This document shows, in pieces, positions 16,318 to 23,449 of a stretch of DNA of 33,213 nt. The stretch's first letter is position 1, and each line of letters opens with the position of its first letter. The DNA comes from a virus. The translations under genes and the position numbers were made by a program. The stretch lies in IMG/VR virus record IMGVR_UViG_3300017727_000069, positions 1 to 33,213 of that record; one strand, written 5' to 3'. The notes beneath the pieces were generated by a model. That model was not told where the DNA came from, did no database searches, and saw nothing but the letters and a program-made list of their open reading frames with translations.

Positions 16318-17346
16318 ATGGCTGTTCCTTCTACAAACACAAGTTTAGGTGGAGTCCAAACAGAGTTTGGCGGTTCTAATCCAATTCAAATTACCGAGTA
16401 TTATTCTGGTGGTTCTTTTGTAGGAGCCAGTACAAGTGCTCCAGTTGCTGGAGGTACAATACCTTCTTCTGGTACAATAAGCATAGGACAATTTAGAGGT
16501 GCTGTTGCAGCATCATTTGTACAAGCTTCTGGTGGAACAGAATCAACATCAGGTGATTACAAAATTCATACTTTTACTGGACCAGGAACATTTACCGTAT
16601 CAGATGCGGGTAACGCAGCAGGGTCAAACTTTGTTGATTACTTGGTAATCGCTGGTGGCGGTGGAGGAGCAGGAAGACACGGTGGTGCCGGTGGCGCTGG
16701 TGGTGTTAGAGAGTCTGACCAAGATGGTGGATGGACAAGTAGTCCAAGAGCAACTGGTACAGGTGTAGCAGTTTCTGCTCAAGGTTATCCAATCACAGTC
16801 GGTGGTGGTTCAGGTGGCGGTAGTAGAGGTTCAACTTCAACTGGAGTAGGTTTCTCAGCAGCAGGTGGTGGTGGAGGTGGTTTCTTTAATAACTCTCCTC
16901 ACGGTGGAGAACCTGGTGGTTGCGGTGGAGGATCTGGTGGAGGATTCGGTGGTTCAACAGGTGGTGGAAGTGGTAACACACCTTCAGTAAGTCCACCTCA
17001 AGGACAAAATGGTGGATCAGGTGCTGGATCAGATGGAGATGGATCTGGTGGCGGTGGTGGTGGAACACTAAACGCAGGACAACCTACACCAAACAACAGA
17101 ACTCCTGGTAGAGGTGGTAATGGTATTAGTACAAGTATTTCAGGATCATCAGTTGCTTACGGCGGCGGTGGTGGTGGAGGATCAAACGGTCCTAGAGTAT
17201 CAGGTGGAGATGGTGGTGGTGGAAGCACAGCATCATCTGGAAGCGGTAACCGTGGTGGTGGCGGAGGCGGAGGAGTCTCTGGACACGAATCACCTGGAGG
17301 ATCAGGTGGTAGTGGAATAGTAATCATAAGGTATAAATATCAATAA
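16318..17346 (+). CDS. Glycine-rich adhesin-like tail protein
   Basis: This 342-residue protein has an N-terminal beta segment (SLGGVQTEFGGSNPIQITEY; ISIGQFRGA at about 57-65), then KIHTFTGPGTFTVSDAG (about 83-99) and DYLVIAGGGGGAG. From about 110 to 335 runs an extended Gly-rich region with many GGGGGG and GGSGGG blocks, closing with GGSGIVIIRYKYQ. Phage glycine-rich domains of this kind form polyglycine II-type sandwiches; T-even gp38 adhesins (for example phage S16) place receptor-binding loops between such motifs. Location beside an S74 fibre supports receptor binding. The coding DNA is locally GC-richer because of GGT/GGA codons. Direct homology to gp38 is not shown. Confidence 0.8.
   Translation: MAVPSTNTSLGGVQTEFGGSNPIQITEYYSGGSFVGASTSAPVAGGTIPSSGTISIGQFRGAVAASFVQASGGTESTSGDYKIHTFTGPGTFTVSDAGNAAGSNFVDYLVIAGGGGGAGRHGGAGGAGGVRESDQDGGWTSSPRATGTGVAVSAQGYPITVGGGSGGGSRGSTSTGVGFSAAGGGGGGFFNNSPHGGEPGGCGGGSGGGFGGSTGGGSGNTPSVSPPQGQNGGSGAGSDGDGSGGGGGGTLNAGQPTPNNRTPGRGGNGISTSISGSSVAYGGGGGGGSNGPRVSGGDGGGGSTASSGSGNRGGGGGGGVSGHESPGGSGGSGIVIIRYKYQ
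17332..17339 (+). promoter_or_regulatory. T4-type late promoter inside the 3' end of the adhesin gene
   Basis: Exact TATAAATA within the last codons of the Gly-rich gene, 8 nt before the ATG at 17348. As at 993-1000, the transcript would have almost no leader and no Shine-Dalgarno. The overlap with IRYKYQ codons means it could be chance, but its spacing matches the gp25 case. Confidence 0.6.
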
Positions 17347-17347
17347 T

Positions 17348-17797
17348 ATGGCACATTTCGCAAAAATAGACGACAACAATTTAGTTTTACAAGTGTTAAC
17401 TGTAGATAATGAAAATGCAACATCTGAGAGTAACGGGCAAAGTTATTTAGAAACACATAATAATTGGCCTGCTAATAAATGGATACAAACTTCATACAAT
17501 ACTTGGGGTGGACAACATAAACTCGATGGTACTCCTTTTAGAGGAAACTTTGCTGTAATTGGTTATACTTGGGATGGTTCAAATGAAATATTTTGGGCAC
17601 CCAAACCATATGCTTCTTGGACCAAAAATAATTCAACTGCTAGTTGGGTATCTCCTCTAGGTGCAGAACCATCATTAACAGCTGAACAAACTCAGCAAAA
17701 TTTAGATGGTACACACGGTTGGAAATATAATTGGGACGAAGACGCTTATCAAGCAGACAATAGCACTGGTTGGACTTTAGTTAACGGATTAGCTTAA
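17348..17797 (+). CDS. Conserved marine-phage structural-type protein, 149 aa
   Basis: The sequence starts MAHFAKIDDNNLVLQVLTVD and contains WIQTSYNTWGGQHKLDGTPF (about 45-64), NFAVIGYTWDGSNEIFWAPK (67-86) and a Trp-rich C-terminus. This order (beta hairpin, N-T-x-G-G, F-R-x-N-F/Y-A-x-I-G-Y) is one I recall from hypothetical proteins near fibre genes in cyanophages and pelagiphages. Abundant Trp and Tyr are compatible with glycan binding. It is the last gene before the oxygenase cassette. No biochemical function is known to me. Confidence 0.75.
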   Translation: MAHFAKIDDNNLVLQVLTVDNENATSESNGQSYLETHNNWPANKWIQTSYNTWGGQHKLDGTPFRGNFAVIGYTWDGSNEIFWAPKPYASWTKNNSTASWVSPLGAEPSLTAEQTQQNLDGTHGWKYNWDEDAYQADNSTGWTLVNGLA

Positions 17798-17863: not shown

Positions 17864-18517
17864 ATGAAAGAACTGAACTTAAATAAAACACATTCCAATT
17901 CATCAACAGTTATACCTTTATTTGCCGTTCCTATAGGATTATATACCTTAAATATATCTCAAAAAGAACAAAATCAAATAGAAAATAAAATACAAAACTT
18001 AAATTACGGTCCTACTAATCAAAGTGGAGGGTCTAATATAAGTAAAGATTTATTTTTATTTAAAGATAAAACATTTAAATTATTAAAAGAAAAAATTTTG
18101 AAAATGGTTTGTGTTTATAATGAAGAAGTAATGGGTTATAAAAAAACAAATTTTAAAGTGACTACATCTTGGGCAACCAGATGTCAAAAGAACGAAGAAT
18201 CTGAAAGACACAAACATTGTAATAGCATGTATTCAGCTGTTTATTATAATAAATGTGATGAAGATATATCTGACATTTCTTTTTACAATAATAATTGGAC
18301 TAGTAACAATTACGATTTAGAAACAACTGAATTTAATACATTCAATTCTAGCTCTTGGTCTTTTAAACCTAAAGACAAACTTTTAATTATTTTTCCTTCT
18401 TCTATGTATCATAAAATATCAAAAAGTTATGGTGAAATAAATAGATATTCTATAGCATGTAATTTTGTTCCAAAACCACCTTATGGTTATATGGACAGTT
18501 TTGTAAATGAAAAATAA
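17864..18517 (+). CDS. Putative 2OG-Fe(II) oxygenase, cassette member 1
   Basis: The 217-residue protein resembles the putative 2OG-Fe(II) oxygenases of the TIGR02466/PF13759 type. FKVTTSWATRCQKNEESERH (97-116) leads into the HKHCNSMYSAVYY strand (116-128). The C-terminal half has LLIIFPSSMYHKISKS (173-188) and ends the fold with NRYSIACNF. Likely metal ligands are H116 or H118 and H183, with R194 as the 2OG-binding base. This family commonly has HxHxN rather than classical HxD at the first site. No clear Shine-Dalgarno precedes the ATG. It opens the oxygenase cassette after a 66-nt gap; substrate unknown. Confidence 0.75.
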   Translation: MKELNLNKTHSNSSTVIPLFAVPIGLYTLNISQKEQNQIENKIQNLNYGPTNQSGGSNISKDLFLFKDKTFKLLKEKILKMVCVYNEEVMGYKKTNFKVTTSWATRCQKNEESERHKHCNSMYSAVYYNKCDEDISDISFYNNNWTSNNYDLETTEFNTFNSSSWSFKPKDKLLIIFPSSMYHKISKSYGEINRYSIACNFVPKPPYGYMDSFVNEK

Positions 18518-18568
18518 GGTTTTAAAAGCTTTATATATATTAGTAAATAAATTTAATGAGGTATGAAT

Positions 18569-19078
18569 ATGATTAAAAAAACACTTTCGGAGATTGACAT
18601 TTACACTGGAGATGTAAACTTACCTAAAGGTATTGAAATAAACCTAGAGGCGTTGAGAGCAGATATACTGTTTTACTTAACTAATAACAAATTTCCACAA
18701 TCTAAAAGTACTGATATATTAGATACGTATATCAGAGATTACTTCAATGTAAACTTTAAAAGGTATCTTATACAAAGACACACAACAGGTATTATGTTAA
18801 AACCTAATGAATACTCTTTATCGTTATATGATGTAAATCCTATGGATTTAGTTAATTCAGTAGATTATGTTATGTTTTATGGTGTTAATATTCCTAAAGA
18901 AGGCTCGTGTAAGATTGTGTTTGAATATGACAATAAAAGATTTAAAGATAACTTTTATGAAATAAGTTTAAAAACAAATTCATATGTTATTTTTCCTAGC
19001 ACTTTAGTCTATAGGTTTGAACCTAACACTTCAAGTAGTTTAAATTATATTATGAAAACAACTTATGAACTTAAATAA
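18569..19078 (+). CDS. Oxygenase-fold-like protein without metal ligands, cassette member 2
   Basis: An ATG at 18563 lies too close to GAGG (18558-18561); the ATG at 18569 has 7-nt spacing and is preferred, giving 169 residues. The protein resembles a double-stranded beta-helix: SVDYVMFYGVNIPKEGSCKI (97-116) is followed by NSYVIFPSTLVYRFEP (137-152). At the FPS-x-x-x-H signature of oxygenases the His is replaced by Tyr148, and no HxD is seen upstream (the matching stretch reads LYDVNPMDLVNS). It therefore looks catalytically dead, perhaps a scaffold or regulatory partner. Its 3' end overlaps the next gene by 14 nt. I recall similar hypotheticals in cyanophages. Confidence 0.7.
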   Translation: MIKKTLSEIDIYTGDVNLPKGIEINLEALRADILFYLTNNKFPQSKSTDILDTYIRDYFNVNFKRYLIQRHTTGIMLKPNEYSLSLYDVNPMDLVNSVDYVMFYGVNIPKEGSCKIVFEYDNKRFKDNFYEISLKTNSYVIFPSTLVYRFEPNTSSSLNYIMKTTYELK

Positions 19079-19733
19079 TTATTATTGGTTTTTTCGATCA
19101 GCGTTATCTTCTAAATTTTGTGATAGAATTTTAAAACGTGCTTTAAAAGAGAAAGATGAAGTTGCTTTAATAGGTGGTGCAAGTGGTGATATTCGGAAAA
19201 CTTCTAAAAAACAAATTAATGATCTTAAAAAGATAAGAAGATCAAATATAACCTGGCTAGATGATCAGTGGATTTACAAAAAGATCCACCCATATATTCA
19301 CACAGCAAATAGAAATGCTGGTTGGAATTATGAATGGGACTATTCTGAAACTTGTCAATTTACAAAATATAAAACAAAACAATTTTATGATTGGCATTGT
19401 GATGCTTGGCCACTACCATATGGTTCTGCTGATCCAGAGTTACACGTAGGTCCTGTAAGTGGAGAAGTTAATAAACATAAAATAGGTAAAATTAGAAAAT
19501 TATCAGTAACAGTTTCGTTGTCTGATCCTAAAGATTACAAAGGTGGCGAGTTAGAGTTTGACTTTAGAAATATGAATCCTGACAAAGAACATAATCGAAA
19601 AATATGTACAGAAATATTACCTAGAGGTAGTATAGTCGTTTTCCCTAGTCACGTATGGCATAGAGTTAGACCTGTAACAAAAGGAGTTAGATATTCTCTA
19701 GTTATTTGGAACCTAGGTTATCCTTTTAAGTAA
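19065..19733 (+). CDS. Prolyl-hydroxylase-like 2OG-Fe(II) oxygenase, cassette member 3
   Basis: This 222-residue protein is the clearest oxygenase of the set. It has the full facial triad and 2OG anchor: H111 and D113 in FYDWHCDAWPL, H199 in IVVFPSHVWHRVRPV, and R209 in TKGVRYSLVIW. Between them are the expected strands RKLSVTVSLSDPKDYKGGEL (144-163). This order matches the PKHD/prolyl 4-hydroxylase-type family (2OG-FeII_Oxy, P4Hc-like), which hydroxylates protein residues using O2 and 2-oxoglutarate. There is no signal peptide, so it acts in the cytoplasm during infection. It overlaps cassette member 2 by 14 nt and abuts member 4. Confidence 0.9.
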   Translation: MNLNNYYWFFRSALSSKFCDRILKRALKEKDEVALIGGASGDIRKTSKKQINDLKKIRRSNITWLDDQWIYKKIHPYIHTANRNAGWNYEWDYSETCQFTKYKTKQFYDWHCDAWPLPYGSADPELHVGPVSGEVNKHKIGKIRKLSVTVSLSDPKDYKGGELEFDFRNMNPDKEHNRKICTEILPRGSIVVFPSHVWHRVRPVTKGVRYSLVIWNLGYPFK

Positions 19734-20195
19734 ATGAAGTATTTTTTAGAAAAAAAATTTATAAAATTTAAAAAAGAATTAGACTTTAATAGATTATCTA
19801 ATTTGATGGCAGATAATAATTTTCAAAGTAAAGTTATATCTGTATATAACACTGATTACTTATTAGACAGTATATTTCAAATTAGAAATATACAAGAAGA
19901 AACATTTTTTACAGAAGTTTTTAACCAAATGAATCATATGTTTAATAATGAAAACCATAGAACTACATTGGATTTATTTTTTTCATATATGAGAGGTGCT
20001 AGAGGTGATGCTCATAGAGATCAGGAATCTGTTCATATTATGGGAGCATTTGGAAAAACTTTATATTGTATTAATAATGAAGAAATAATATTAGAAAAGG
20101 GGGATAGATTATTCATAGAAAAAGGAGTTAAACATAGAGCTATAGGTTTAACACCAAGAATAATTTTATCTTTTGGTAAATATGAAAACTACTAA
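19734..20195 (+). CDS. Cupin/2OG-oxygenase-like protein, cassette member 4
   Basis: The short (153 aa) product has a lysine-rich N-terminus, then a compact beta-barrel. FSYMRGARGDAHRDQESVHI (83-102) contains HRD (H94, D96) and a nearby H101. ILEKGDRLFIEKGVKHRAIG (119-138) contains the distal H134, with R142 following in LTPRIILSFGK. The GDRLFI-x-K-G-x-x-H turn is cupin-like, and the HxD...H...R order fits a small 2OG oxygenase. It is shorter than typical members, lacking the N-terminal helices. Start directly follows the previous stop at 19733, and its end overlaps the next gene. Confidence 0.7.
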   Translation: MKYFLEKKFIKFKKELDFNRLSNLMADNNFQSKVISVYNTDYLLDSIFQIRNIQEETFFTEVFNQMNHMFNNENHRTTLDLFFSYMRGARGDAHRDQESVHIMGAFGKTLYCINNEEIILEKGDRLFIEKGVKHRAIGLTPRIILSFGKYENY

Positions 20196-20871
20196 TTTTA
20201 AAAAAGACAAATATGCGGTGATAAAGAAAGTTATATCAAAAGAATTATCCGAATACATATTTAACTATTTTATGATAAAAAGACAAGTGGCGCAAACTCT
20301 TTTTTATTCAAAATTTATCTCACCAGAAAATACTGATTGGGGATTTTTTAAGGATCCTCAAGTACCAAATACATATTCTCACTATGCCGATATTGCTATG
20401 GAAACTCTTTTATTAAAAGTACAGCCAGTAATAGAAAAACATATAAAAGATAAACTCATTCCAACATATTCATATGCTAGAATATATAAAAAGGGTGATA
20501 TATTAGAAAGACATAAAGATAGACCTAGTTGTGAAATATCAGTTACAATGAATCTAGGTGGTGATCTTTGGCCAATATATTTAAACCCTGATCCAAAGTC
20601 TGGTTATGTAGATAAGAATAGTAAAAAGAGAGGAAGACATGCGATCCAAGATTACGTGCCTTCTAGTAAAAAGGGAATTGAAGTAAATCTCAAACCTGGC
20701 GATATGCTCATATACTCTGGTTGTGATTTAGAACATTGGAGAGATAAATTTAAAGGTAAAGACTGTGCTCAAGTTTTTTTACATTATAACAAACTTAGCA
20801 GTGGTACAAAAAATATTTTTGATAATAGAAAACATATAGGACTTCCCGTTGAATTTAAAAACAAAGTATAA
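20182..20871 (+). CDS. 2OG-Fe(II) oxygenase, cassette member 5
   Basis: The ATG at 20182 is preferred over a TTG at 20173; both lie inside the previous gene. The 229-residue product has YARIYKKGDILERHKDRPSC (98-117) with H111 and D113, CEISVTMNLGGDLWPIYLN (117-135), and GDMLIYSGCDLEHWRDKFKG (173-192) with H185. It ends the fold with CAQVFLHYN, where a Gln occupies the place usually holding the 2OG-binding Arg or Lys in other families. This signature recurs in marine phage 2OG oxygenases as I remember them. A 24-residue insert (137-160) separates the two halves. Substrate unknown. Confidence 0.85.
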   Translation: MKTTNFKKDKYAVIKKVISKELSEYIFNYFMIKRQVAQTLFYSKFISPENTDWGFFKDPQVPNTYSHYADIAMETLLLKVQPVIEKHIKDKLIPTYSYARIYKKGDILERHKDRPSCEISVTMNLGGDLWPIYLNPDPKSGYVDKNSKKRGRHAIQDYVPSSKKGIEVNLKPGDMLIYSGCDLEHWRDKFKGKDCAQVFLHYNKLSSGTKNIFDNRKHIGLPVEFKNKV

Positions 20872-21370
20872 GATTATAGATAATTTTTTAGAAAAAAATG
20901 TGTACGATCATTTTTCTAATTTTTTAAAGTCTGAAGAAGTACCTTGGTATTTACGACATATTGATTCATCTTATGGTGAAACTAAAAATAAAAATGGTTT
21001 TTTTTCTTTTTGTTTTTATAATAATTTTGAACCAAACCACGATGCCTTTTACACTTATATACAACCATTTATTAAAAAATTAAAAGCAAGATCACTTTTA
21101 CAAATAAGAGCTAATTTAACTTGTAGAGATATTGATAATAACGAGTCATCTTATCACGTGGATTATAATTATAATAATTCTATGACTGGAATTTATTTTC
21201 TTACATCTTGTAATGCTAAAACAATATTAAAAATTAATAAAAAAGAAATAGATGTAGATAATATTGAAAATAGAATGTTGTTATTTCCAACGAACATATT
21301 ACATAAAGTGGTTTATCAAACTGATATACATAAAAGATATGTTGTTAATTTTAACTTTTTTGGTGAATAA
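20849..21370 (+). CDS. 2OG-Fe(II) oxygenase, cassette member 6 (TTG start)
   Basis: The product of 173 residues contains SYHVDYNYNNSMTGIYFLTS (101-120) with H103 and D105. RMLLFPTNILHKVVYQTDIH (142-161) carries H152, and KRYVVNFNFF carries R163. HxD...H...R and the TGIYFLTSCNAKT segment match a cyanophage-type 2OG oxygenase family. No ATG exists near the N-terminus: the first in-frame candidate that keeps IIDNFLE is TTG at 20849, which overlaps member 5 by 23 nt, so translation probably depends on coupling. Its stop overlaps the next start (TAATG). Confidence 0.8.
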   Translation: MNLKTKYKIIDNFLEKNVYDHFSNFLKSEEVPWYLRHIDSSYGETKNKNGFFSFCFYNNFEPNHDAFYTYIQPFIKKLKARSLLQIRANLTCRDIDNNESSYHVDYNYNNSMTGIYFLTSCNAKTILKINKKEIDVDNIENRMLLFPTNILHKVVYQTDIHKRYVVNFNFFGE

Positions 21371-21699
21371 TGTCAGTTGCTAACTTTACAAAATTATTAA
21401 AAGATAAAAAATATCCTAAATCAAAAGAAGGTTGGGATATAGAAGGCATATTACATAAGTCAACAAATAGGTCTTATAAGTATGATTTGGGTCCTATTAG
21501 AAAATTTGAAGATGAATCAGTAGGAAAAATAGGTTTTTTTAAAACCAAAGCAGATAAGATGGTATTTGATTTTAAAGATCAGTGGATAATATTAGACATT
21601 GAAGAACTACACGAATATATAAAAGAAAATAATGTTAAAAATCTTTTACTTGATGATCTTCTTAAAACTTTAACGTGGAATATAATTGTAGATAAATGA
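21370..21699 (+). CDS. Unrecognised 109-aa protein inside the oxygenase cassette
   Basis: This is the only cassette gene without a recognisable beta-helix signature. It begins MSVANFTKLLKDKKYPKSKE, followed by GWDIEGILHKSTNRSYKYDL (21-40), IGFFKTKADKMVFDFKDQWI (54-73) and a C-terminal helix-rich part (EELHEYIKENNVKNLLLDDL). No HxD, cysteine cluster or membrane segment is present. Its start overlaps the stop of member 6 and its stop overlaps member 7 (ATGA), so it is co-translated with the oxygenases. A partner or substrate-delivery role is possible but speculative. Confidence 0.7.
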   Translation: MSVANFTKLLKDKKYPKSKEGWDIEGILHKSTNRSYKYDLGPIRKFEDESVGKIGFFKTKADKMVFDFKDQWIILDIEELHEYIKENNVKNLLLDDLLKTLTWNIIVDK

Positions 21700-22373
21700 A
21701 TTGGCCTTTAGTAGTTGCAGATGAGTTTTACAAAGACATTGATCTCTTACAAGATTTTGCAGTAAAACAACATTATGAACCTGGACTTAATTTTCCAGGA
21801 TTTAGAACAAATTTAATAAGTGAAATAAATCCTAATTTATTTGAAGGTATTGCTTTAAAAACTTTGTCTTTATTATATCCAGATAACTATAATGAGTTGA
21901 CATATAGAGCAACTTCTTATATTCAGAGAATACCAGCAAACTTAATTGATGGTTGGGTACATTCAGACCAAGGAAGTCAAATTACTTCTATAATATATTT
22001 AAACAAAAATATTAATGCTGGAACATCATTATTTAAGCCAGTTGTTCCTTTTCCAAACATTAATGATTACGCTTATGATAAAAGATGTTATTTTCAAAAA
22101 GTAAATAATTTAGAGAAACTTACGAAAAAAGAAGAAGTATTTTTTACAAGTAAAAGAGATGAAATTAATTCTCAGTTTAGAAAAACTTGTTTCATAAATT
22201 CTGAATATAATAGGTGTATCTTATTTGATGCTAGTGAATATCATTCAGCAGAAAGTTTTAATTCTAATACTAAAGAAGATAGATATACTTACATTACTTT
22301 TTGGCAAGAGATATGGTACGGAAACAAACAATTAAATCCAACGTTACCTACTTCAAAAAGGATTATGCCATAA
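21696..22373 (+). CDS. DUF6445-like 2OG oxygenase, cassette member 7
   Basis: The 225-residue protein has the layout of DUF6445-type oxygenase-fold proteins. It opens MNWPLVVADEFYKDIDLLQD and reaches SYIQRIPANLIDGWVHSDQG (74-93) with H89 and D91. SIIYLNKNINAGTSLFKPV (98-116) and a variable insert (118-165) follow. The second half is NRCILFDASEYHSAESFNSN (172-191) with H183, then R196 in DRYTYITFW. The HxD...H...R set appears intact. It begins with an ATGA overlap and ends with a TAATG overlap. Family naming is from memory; catalytic competence is inferred from the residues. Confidence 0.8.
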   Translation: MNWPLVVADEFYKDIDLLQDFAVKQHYEPGLNFPGFRTNLISEINPNLFEGIALKTLSLLYPDNYNELTYRATSYIQRIPANLIDGWVHSDQGSQITSIIYLNKNINAGTSLFKPVVPFPNINDYAYDKRCYFQKVNNLEKLTKKEEVFFTSKRDEINSQFRKTCFINSEYNRCILFDASEYHSAESFNSNTKEDRYTYITFWQEIWYGNKQLNPTLPTSKRIMP

Positions 22374-22912
22374 TGGATAATTTTATATACTTGTCAAAAA
22401 TTAGTAAAAAGGTATGTGAGGATATTGTTAATTATTATTTCAATAATAAAGAGCAGCACTTACAACCAGAGTTTAATAGTGATACTAAAACATCTACGGA
22501 ATTACCTATCTCTGTTAGTAACAATGATTATCCATTTAACAAATATAAAACTGAATTACAAAAATGTATTGATGAATATAGAAATAAGTATCCAGAGGTA
22601 GATACCTTATTAGAAAAATGGGGTCTATTAGAAGATTATAATATACAATACTATAAACCAGACGAAGGTTTTAAAAAAGTACACTGTGAAAGAGGTTGTA
22701 TAGAAGCATCTAAACGAGTCCTTGTTTTTATGACTTATCTAAATACAGTACAAGATGCTGGAACTATATGGCCAAAACAAAAATTTACTTCCGATTGTAT
22801 TATCGGCAACACTGTTATATGGCCTACGGATTGGACACACTCTCATAGAGGTATTATAAACTCTAAAAAAGATAAATGTATTATTACAGGATGGTATAGT
22901 TTTTATGATTAA
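22373..22912 (+). CDS. 2OG-oxygenase-like protein with HxE, cassette member 8
   Basis: The start is the ATG in TAATG at 22371-22375; a longer frame from 22301 would overlap member 7 deeply and is unlikely. The 179-residue product has YNIQYYKPDEGFKKVHCERG (89-108) with H104 and E106 in place of the usual HxD, LVFMTYLNTVQDAGTIWPKQ (117-136), and NTVIWPTDWTHSHRGIINS (146-164) with H156 or H158. K168 in KDKCIITGW may anchor 2OG. The THxHRG signature and HxE variant recur in one phage and bacterial oxygenase group. It overlaps member 9 by 8 nt. Confidence 0.78.
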   Translation: MDNFIYLSKISKKVCEDIVNYYFNNKEQHLQPEFNSDTKTSTELPISVSNNDYPFNKYKTELQKCIDEYRNKYPEVDTLLEKWGLLEDYNIQYYKPDEGFKKVHCERGCIEASKRVLVFMTYLNTVQDAGTIWPKQKFTSDCIIGNTVIWPTDWTHSHRGIINSKKDKCIITGWYSFYD

Positions 22913-23423
22913 AGTAAAGAAAATCCAAAGTTACTATCTAGTTACAAAGATCAAAGAACATAATCAAATTAAAAGTGATCTCTTATCTTTAATTGATAAG
23001 ATACCTCAAAATTCTTTTGAAGATATAACACATACAGATTGGAATTTACCTAGAGATTTAAAGAGAGAATATTTAGACTATTTTTATAAAATTATTACAC
23101 CTTATATGAATGAGATGACTGAATTTTTAGAGGAAAAGAAATGTACTATTCAAAATGGATGGTTTCAACAATATTATAAAAATAACTACCACACTTGGCA
23201 TAGACACGGAAAAACAAATTTTGCTAATGTATATTATCTAGAGCTGAAAGATACTAAAAGAACAACAAAAGTTAAACCTATAGTAAATAGTAAGAAGTCA
23301 ATAAATCTAATAGCTAAAGAAGGTGAATTAGTTACTTTTCCTGCTATGTTTCAACATACGTCTGAGAAGATTAATAACAATTTTAGAAAAACAATAATAT
23401 CATTTAATAGTGATTTTGAGTAA
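22905..23423 (+). CDS. 2OG-oxygenase-like protein with HxxHxH, cassette member 9
   Basis: The last cassette gene gives 172 residues: an N-terminal helical part (LLSLIDKIPQNSFEDITHTD, then DLKREYLDYFYKIITPYM), then GWFQQYYKNNYHTWHRHGKT (85-104). H96, H99 and H101 cluster where HxD would lie. FANVYYLELKD (106-116) and ELVTFPAMFQHTSEKI (141-156) with H151 follow, and R161 in FRKTIISFNSDF closes the fold. The His-rich first site resembles member 1 more than the classical HxD members, so a different metal geometry is possible. A late promoter for the next block follows 18 nt after the stop. Confidence 0.75.
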   Translation: MIKVKKIQSYYLVTKIKEHNQIKSDLLSLIDKIPQNSFEDITHTDWNLPRDLKREYLDYFYKIITPYMNEMTEFLEEKKCTIQNGWFQQYYKNNYHTWHRHGKTNFANVYYLELKDTKRTTKVKPIVNSKKSINLIAKEGELVTFPAMFQHTSEKINNNFRKTIISFNSDFE

Positions 23424-23441: not shown

Positions 23442-23449
23442 TATAAATA
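23442..23449 (+). promoter_or_regulatory. T4-type late promoter (TATAAATA)
   Basis: Exact octamer at the end of the oxygenase cassette; it restarts late transcription for the second fibre block. AAGGAG (23458-23463) follows before the ATG at 23469. Confidence 0.85.

Follow-up and report, generated by a model that had tools for sequence, protein, structure and literature searches.

The window analysed here, a stretch of 33,213 bases from the IMG/VR virus record IMGVR_UViG_3300017727_000069, covers the baseplate-to-neck portion of a T4-like phage genome. It encodes homologues of gp25, gp6 and gp8, a protein of 2051 amino acids (phrog_358), fibres, and two neck proteins of the gp13/gp14 type (31246 and 32057). 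In pelagic myophages the same genomic place has been described as the 'host recognition cluster' (PMC7029224). Our study concerns a cassette of ten co-directional open reading frames (ORFs) on the plus strand at 17864-23423, separated by tiny gaps or overlapping, and the two genes directly upstream, which encode a glycine-rich adhesin and its small partner. The initial annotation had assigned nine of the ten cassette genes to oxygenases of the 2-oxoglutarate (2OG)/Fe(II) type, and this was confirmed by the ORF list, Pfam and phrog profiles, hhalign comparisons and a structural model of one member. The genes are listed below.

16318..17346, plus strand: adhG, glycine-rich protein, predicted receptor-binding tip and proposed substrate (PF21722 Gly_rich_2 1.3e-7, above cut-off)
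17348..17797, plus strand: a7759, small conserved adhesin partner (phrog_7759 8e-31)
17864..18517, plus strand: p1, TIGR02466/PF13759-type oxygenase (PF13759 3.5e-16; HxH...H...R)
18563..19078, plus strand: p2, ligand-less pseudo-oxygenase, putative partner of p3 (hhalign to the p1 family 97%)
19065..19733, plus strand: p3, PKHD-type hydroxylase, core member (PF13640 3.5e-14; HxD...H...RxS)
19734..20195, plus strand: p4, cupin/JmjC-like protein (Cupin_2 1.7e-4, below cut-off; HxD...H...R)
20182..20871, plus strand: p5, oxygenase of a family labelled 'ferrochelatase', core member (phrog_2954 1e-50; AlphaFold2 model)
20849..21370, plus strand: p6, oxygenase of a family labelled 'DNA endonuclease V' (phrog_274 2e-34; PF13640 1.9e-4, below cut-off; HxD...H...R)
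21370..21699, plus strand: p7, conserved cassette companion of 109 amino acids, not an oxygenase (no family match)
21696..22373, plus strand: p8, DUF6445 protein (PF20043 1.7e-9; HxD...H...R)
22373..22912, plus strand: p9, phrog_61-type oxygenase (phrog_61 1e-24; HxE...H...K)
22905..23423, plus strand: p10, PF13759-type oxygenase (PF13759 2.4e-6; HxH...H)

Eight of the nine oxygenase-type genes have intact metal ligands, 18563 (p2) is ligand-less, and 21370 (p7) is unrelated. Counted over all fetched relatives of each cassette family, the facial triad HxD/E...H (HxH...H in the TIGR02466 type) is conserved in p1, p3, p4, p5, p8, p9, p10 and most p6 relatives, which retain the HxD. The HxH of p1 is kept in 202/202 relatives and the HxD of p3 and p5 in 170/170 and 122/122, respectively. 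The ligands of p8 and p10 are kept in 18/18 and 13/13 relatives, those of p4 are invariant across 9, and in p9 the HxE is found in 41/41 and the distal His in 33/41. The ligands read from the window at the outset (HxD in five genes, HxE in one, His-clustered in two) were therefore correct and are conserved in relatives. Chance was rejected as the source of the oxygenase resemblance, since both families and ligands are conserved. The 2OG-binding Arg or Lys after the distal His is conserved in p1, p3, p4, p6, p8 and p9 and mixed in p10; at the position examined for this residue the p5 family has an invariant Gln.

At least eight members are of the double-stranded beta-helix type, and the ninth probably is as well. 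The fold evidence consists of an AlphaFold2 model for p5, profile matches for p1, p3, p6 and p8-p10, a weak match for p4, and a profile-profile relationship only for p2. The profile search proposed in the initial annotation matched oxygenase families, among them DUF6445 (21696) and the TIGR02466/PF13759 type (17864). Four genes passed the Pfam cut-offs, 17864, 19065 and 22905 with oxygenase families and 21696 with DUF6445. The ORF of p9 opens at 22301, its start being taken as 22373, and it matches PF13640 at 1e-4, below cut-off. In profile searches of the Protein Data Bank (PDB), p3 matched PKHD hydroxylases (2e-9) and prolyl 4-hydroxylase 5c5t (2.7e-4), and the best match of p6 was PHD2/EGLN1 with an E-value of only 0.013. 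By hhalign p6 (20849) was joined to 17864 and 21696 at 85-95%, with 85-91% for p8 against p6. A Pfam scan of p5 (20182) gave no oxygenase match. Its model (predicted local distance difference test score, pLDDT, 83.5) most resembled the bacterial prolyl 4-hydroxylase 4iw3 in Foldseek (7e-9); there were 642 matches at E<=1e-3, and those from the PDB were 2OG oxygenases, PHD2 included. Structure prediction, which had been suggested for all ten proteins, thus gave an oxygenase-like model for p5, the only cassette enzyme modelled. For p2 (18563) the sole library match was phrog_81 (2e-4), and in its family the distal His occurs in 6 of 76 aligned rows and both motifs in 4 of 76. No oxygenase relationship of p7 was found in Pfam, phrog and hhalign scans, nor any confident PDB match; the gene occurs in 30 of the 80 related loci and often closes the cassette. 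A sequence search of solved structures returned nothing useful for p2, p5, p8, a7759 and p7.

Two of these families seem to be misnamed in phage records, where the 20182 family is labelled 'ferrochelatase' and the 20849 family 'DNA endonuclease V'. A ferrochelatase identity of p5 is not supported, given its oxygenase fold and the absence of a match in Pfam (p5 of the window and four isolate members) and in NCBIfam (22 members). Judged from the p5 model, this family is of 2OG-oxygenase type. In all, 156 phage records match p5, and the fold argues against the label that many of them carry. DenV is likewise unsupported for p6, as the T4 DenV model was unmatched by the five members scanned; three of these five match PF13640 (one above and two below cut-off) and two match nothing. 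With its HxD...H...R motif and weak matches to PF13640 and PHD2, the p6 family resembles a 2OG oxygenase at the sequence level. Isolate genes belonging to the p6 and p5 families and carrying these doubtful labels are located at L006:6811-7422, L005:16530-17643, L004:17233-17874 and L003:11264-11884. An iron or haem role was inferred in 2022 from 'ferrochelatase' genes adjoining oxygenases (PMC9599517). Since, as far as the evidence goes, both genes of the published pair are of oxygenase type, this reading needs revision.

The AlphaFold2 model of adhG (pLDDT 83.5) has the Pam3 fibre 7ypx as its best PDB match (E 4.5e-5), with a modest template modelling (TM) score of 0.35-0.45. The Pam3 fibre is a receptor-binding tip with TNF-like and glycine-rich parts (PMC9608196). 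Fold and position suggest that adhG, which contains 5.0% proline over the whole protein, binds the host receptor. The small partner a7759 has no PDB match and is possibly an assembly or tip protein.

The oxygenases are tied to this pair of genes. Using a7759 (17348), a query blind to oxygenases, we searched IMG/VR and found oxygenases beside a7759 in all 80 nearest loci, mostly within 60 nucleotides. The adhesin lies upstream of a7759 in 69 of them, the remainder being mostly cut short or unassigned. In the reverse search from p5 (20182), the adhesin or a7759 was present in 34 of the 35 loci holding 4.5 kb upstream. Among the 80 loci 19065-type genes occur in 79, 18563-type genes in 74 and 20182-type genes in 67. 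Genes mostly follow the order adhesin, a7759, 18563-type, 19065-type and then others. The p2-type gene directly precedes the p3-type gene in 65 of the 74 loci that have it, and an overlap of 14 nucleotides between the two is frequent. This linkage exists in the T4-like phages S-SM1 and HTVC008M and in the non-T4-like HTVC023P and HTVC033P. Remoter relatives of a7759 are less often linked, with 57/80 for a query from HTVC025P and 5/106 domains in two further scans; the oxygenase link therefore characterises only some members of the adhesin family. No published link of phage oxygenases to a glycine-rich adhesin or its proline content was found in the open-access literature searched. Blocks of this kind are common in marine phages, and the fibre-region setting noted earlier can be narrowed: what counts is the place directly behind one adhesin/partner gene pair, not the fibre region in general. 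The number of oxygenases, initially regarded as exceptional, is not so, as the 39 complete cassettes among related loci contain 3-10 each, most commonly 6, and the nine found here are near the top.

This linkage bears on the published proposal that such enzymes are directed at the host (Sullivan et al. 2010, PMC3037559), consuming or tuning 2-oxoglutarate or acting on host proteins and thereby steering nitrogen signalling and metabolism. Cyanophage oxygenases are also scattered away from fibres, for example near uvsW/uvsY and in P-HM1, as such a role would allow. The tight association with a single adhesin pair across phage types counts against it, and metabolite consumption would presumably not need so many divergent enzymes. 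Moreover, HTVC025P and HTVC008M infect the same Pelagibacter strain, HTCC1062, and in HTVC025P no annotated or detected oxygenase lies in the 11 kb around the adhesin (the remaining genome was not searched). The host-directed role, named as the main alternative in the initial annotation, is weakened by this comparison, and we regard it as improbable.

Further evidence comes from the composition of the adhesins. Proline makes up 5.12% of the glycine-rich domain in oxygenase-linked adhesins (n=127) and 2.35% in unlinked ones (n=40; Mann-Whitney p=2e-12), whereas no other residue of this domain shifts beyond 0.73-1.41-fold and glycine is equal (36%). The rest of the adhesin does not differ (3.4% linked vs 3.1% unlinked), nor do the remaining proteins encoded on these contigs (3.29 vs 3.06%, p=0.12). 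Therefore, the rise in proline is confined to the glycine-rich domain. Base composition was rejected as its cause, because linked contigs have a slightly lower GC content (0.346 vs 0.364). At two sites the prolines are specific. In the column following a conserved tyrosine, the YP[IV] site, Pro is found in 57 of 64 adhesins with p2+p3 and in none of 48 without p3 (Thr in 46). In the loop GNxPPxSPP[QE]G the element PP[QE]G occurs in 42/160 linked and 0/40 unlinked adhesins. Outside this loop the median proline content is 1.9% with no oxygenase, 2.9% with oxygenases other than p3, 4.4% with p3 and 6.7% with p2+p3. The earlier proposal that several enzymes work together on the virion is supported, with the adhesin-pair linkage (80/80, 34/35) as evidence; that several virion proteins are modified is not, and the evidence points to one target, the glycine-rich adhesin tip.

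The target might instead be the receptor on the host surface (lipid A, O-chain or a porin), changed by the enzymes so as to prevent reinfection of the cell, with the link to the adhesin arising from a common receptor. The region is a host-recognition cluster in which glycosyltransferases have been read in this way (PMC7029224), and a glycosyltransferase lies near the HTVC023P cassette. Extra proline restricted to the phage's own glycine-rich domain is not predicted by receptor alteration, which we consider quite improbable.

Proline also stood out when 200 tips were analysed by phylogenetic generalised least squares (PGLS) under Pagel's lambda, on a tree built from the short a7759 protein with 27-31 inferred changes of oxygenase state. 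The effect was +0.83 points for the presence of any oxygenase (p=0.0026) and +0.97 points for p3 (p=5e-5). Proline ranked first of the 20 residues for both predictors, while Asn was not significant and Thr fell. This ranking speaks against the idea that the oxygenases modify the adhesin or a7759 at other residues (Asn, Asp, Lys, Arg, Thr) and that proline richness marks a tip class travelling with the cassette, and so does the fact that p5 and p3 most resemble prolyl hydroxylases. In favour of that idea are the diversity of the enzymes (PKHD, TIGR02466, DUF6445, cupin-like), the residue specificity of which is unproven, and possible clade effects, as the p2+p3 group changes state only about 5 times on the tree. 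Modification at residues other than proline appears unlikely to us, though it deserves some weight.

In cultured isolates with linked oxygenases the adhesins contain 6.2 and 6.9% Pro (HTVC033P), 3.7% (HTVC008M), 6.4% (S-SM1) and 3.8% (DSL-LC04), and in Mosig a Gly_rich_2 protein with 6.0% Pro lies upstream of an oxygenase cassette. Values for isolates unlinked in the fetched regions examined are 1.4% in HTVC025P, 1.6% in CRP-207, 1.1 and 2.3% in Melnitz, 3.2% in phiPsal1 and 7.1% in Bellamy. The linked phage HTVC023P has four tandem glycine-rich adhesin-type genes before its oxygenases, with 7.2-13.2% Pro (L003:3204-8900). Bellamy carries an array of glycine-rich proteins with 6.6-9.2% Pro (L182:7030-18418), and an oxygenase-type ORF begins 24 nucleotides after the last of them (9.2%). 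Directly behind the Mosig cassette are a haem oxygenase gene (PF01126 2e-20) and an annotated phycocyanobilin:ferredoxin oxidoreductase gene (L007:18832-20068). Synthesis of a small molecule or modified peptide by the block would be in keeping with this haem oxygenase and PcyA-like gene and with many tailoring-type oxygenases standing together. Yet neither a precursor peptide nor an assembly enzyme was seen in the window, and the link to the adhesin would be unexplained, making such a product highly improbable.

Adhesin-pair linkage, prolyl-hydroxylase-like core enzymes and the proline signature in the glycine-rich domain together favour, as the best explanation, a set of several enzymes that hydroxylates prolines of the receptor-binding tip; we place somewhat more belief than doubt in it. 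The cassette would be an adhesin-maturation system, its 2OG/Fe(II) oxygenases hydroxylating prolines of the glycine-rich tip whose gene lies just upstream. This step would probably precede packing of the tip into its glycine lattice. We infer the hydroxylation chemistry from enzyme family and fold. The core hydroxylases would be p3 (PKHD type) and the prolyl-hydroxylase-like p5 and p6, and p2 would act as the catalytically dead partner of p3, presumably in a complex. The remaining members may serve other prolines or sequence contexts. The modification could affect binding or stability of the tip. Whether a dedicated pathway of this kind, with its pseudo-enzyme partner, puts hydroxyproline into the tip while adhesin sequence and hydroxylase set co-evolve is, in our estimate, evenly balanced.

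Several observations weigh against tip prolyl hydroxylation. Distant a7759 relatives are usually without oxygenases, which shows that adhesins of this kind do not depend on them to function, and the Bellamy adhesin reaches 7.1% Pro with no adjacent oxygenase. Only one of the nine enzyme folds (p5) was modelled, and both site signatures were selected after viewing the alignment. Phylogenetically, the proline signal has mixed backing and is in part bound to clades. Independent contrasts gave no proline link (r=-0.07, p=0.45), and of 10 comparisons between sister clades only 7 were in its favour. As the null contrasts came first and PGLS used a larger set, the latter should not be taken as a single planned test. 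The two methods conflict, perhaps because of noise from hypervariable loops on very short branches. In a held-out set of newly fetched loci the 101 unlinked domains had a median proline content of 1.8%, low as expected. There the effect of any oxygenase was not significant with 5 linked loci (p=0.17, PGLS p=0.23), and that of p3 was significant from 3 loci (p=0.015, PGLS p=0.013). Pooled PGLS, which includes the discovery data, resulted in +0.79 points for any oxygenase (p=2e-4) and +1.05 for the 19065-type (p=6e-8).

Expression signals were found around the cassette. The T4 late promoter consensus TATAAATA has 11 copies in the window (993-31227), all on the plus strand and none on the other, against an expectation of about 7 for the two strands together. 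Ten of the 11 copies are located 8-43 nucleotides ahead of an ORF, and one lies just past the cassette:

23442..23449, plus strand: T4-type late promoter motif TATAAATA

The motif occurs within 60 nucleotides upstream of 10 of 24 flanking genes and of 0 of 10 cassette genes (Fisher p=0.017), and no late promoter motif was found inside the cassette. Matches resembling sigma-70 promoters and terminators were at chance level. This distribution would fit read-through into the cassette from the adhesin side. Elsewhere in HTVC008M, an annotated tryptophan halogenase gene adjoins the terminase gene (L004:9525-10919).

Few unexplained genes of marine T4-like phages recur as often as those for 2OG oxygenases, for which the proposal of 2010 was metabolic. 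With a substrate proposed by name in the neighbourhood, sites predicted for it, and isolates that infect one and the same host strain either with the cassette or without it, the question is open to mass spectrometry. If our explanation holds, phage host recognition would depend on a protein modification requiring oxygen and iron. To our knowledge, such protein modification has so far not been described for tailed phages.

Among known systems, the chlorella virus PBCV-1 likewise encodes a prolyl hydroxylase, those of the cassette being predicted, prolyl-hydroxylase-like enzymes. Evidence for 4-hydroxyproline in viral proteins is indicated by the title of a cited study on the PBCV-1 prolyl 4-hydroxylase (Eriksson 1999, in PMC9301287). 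PBCV-1 is an algal virus with a collagen context, whereas here up to ten different enzymes stand beside a glycine-lattice adhesin in tailed phages. The tips Pam3 gp24/gp25 and S16 gp38 share the adhesin fold class and a small adjacent protein, in Pam3 the chaperone gp25 (PMC9608196). In contrast to our cassette no oxygenases are described there, and a7759 is likened to gp25 by position only. The PKHD-type proteins PiuC/YbiX, to which the p3 profile corresponds (2e-9) with conserved HxD...H...RxS, are cellular and belong to another context. The oxygenase heterodimer TlxIJ (PDB 7vbq), among the fold matches of p5, is a fungal natural-product enzyme. One of its subunits is catalytically inactive, like p2; the pairing of p2 with p3 is deduced from gene adjacency only. 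The closest counterparts are found in cyanophages and pelagiphages, whose 2OG-Fe(II) oxygenases (PMC3037559; PMC9599517) belong to the same gene families as the cassette. Wittmers et al. distinguished eight 2OG oxygenases, which often lie near one another and are frequently accompanied by a 'ferrochelatase' (PMC9599517). Those earlier accounts treated the oxygenases as auxiliary metabolic genes, whereas here they are linked to an adhesin and the 'ferrochelatase' itself has a predicted oxygenase fold.

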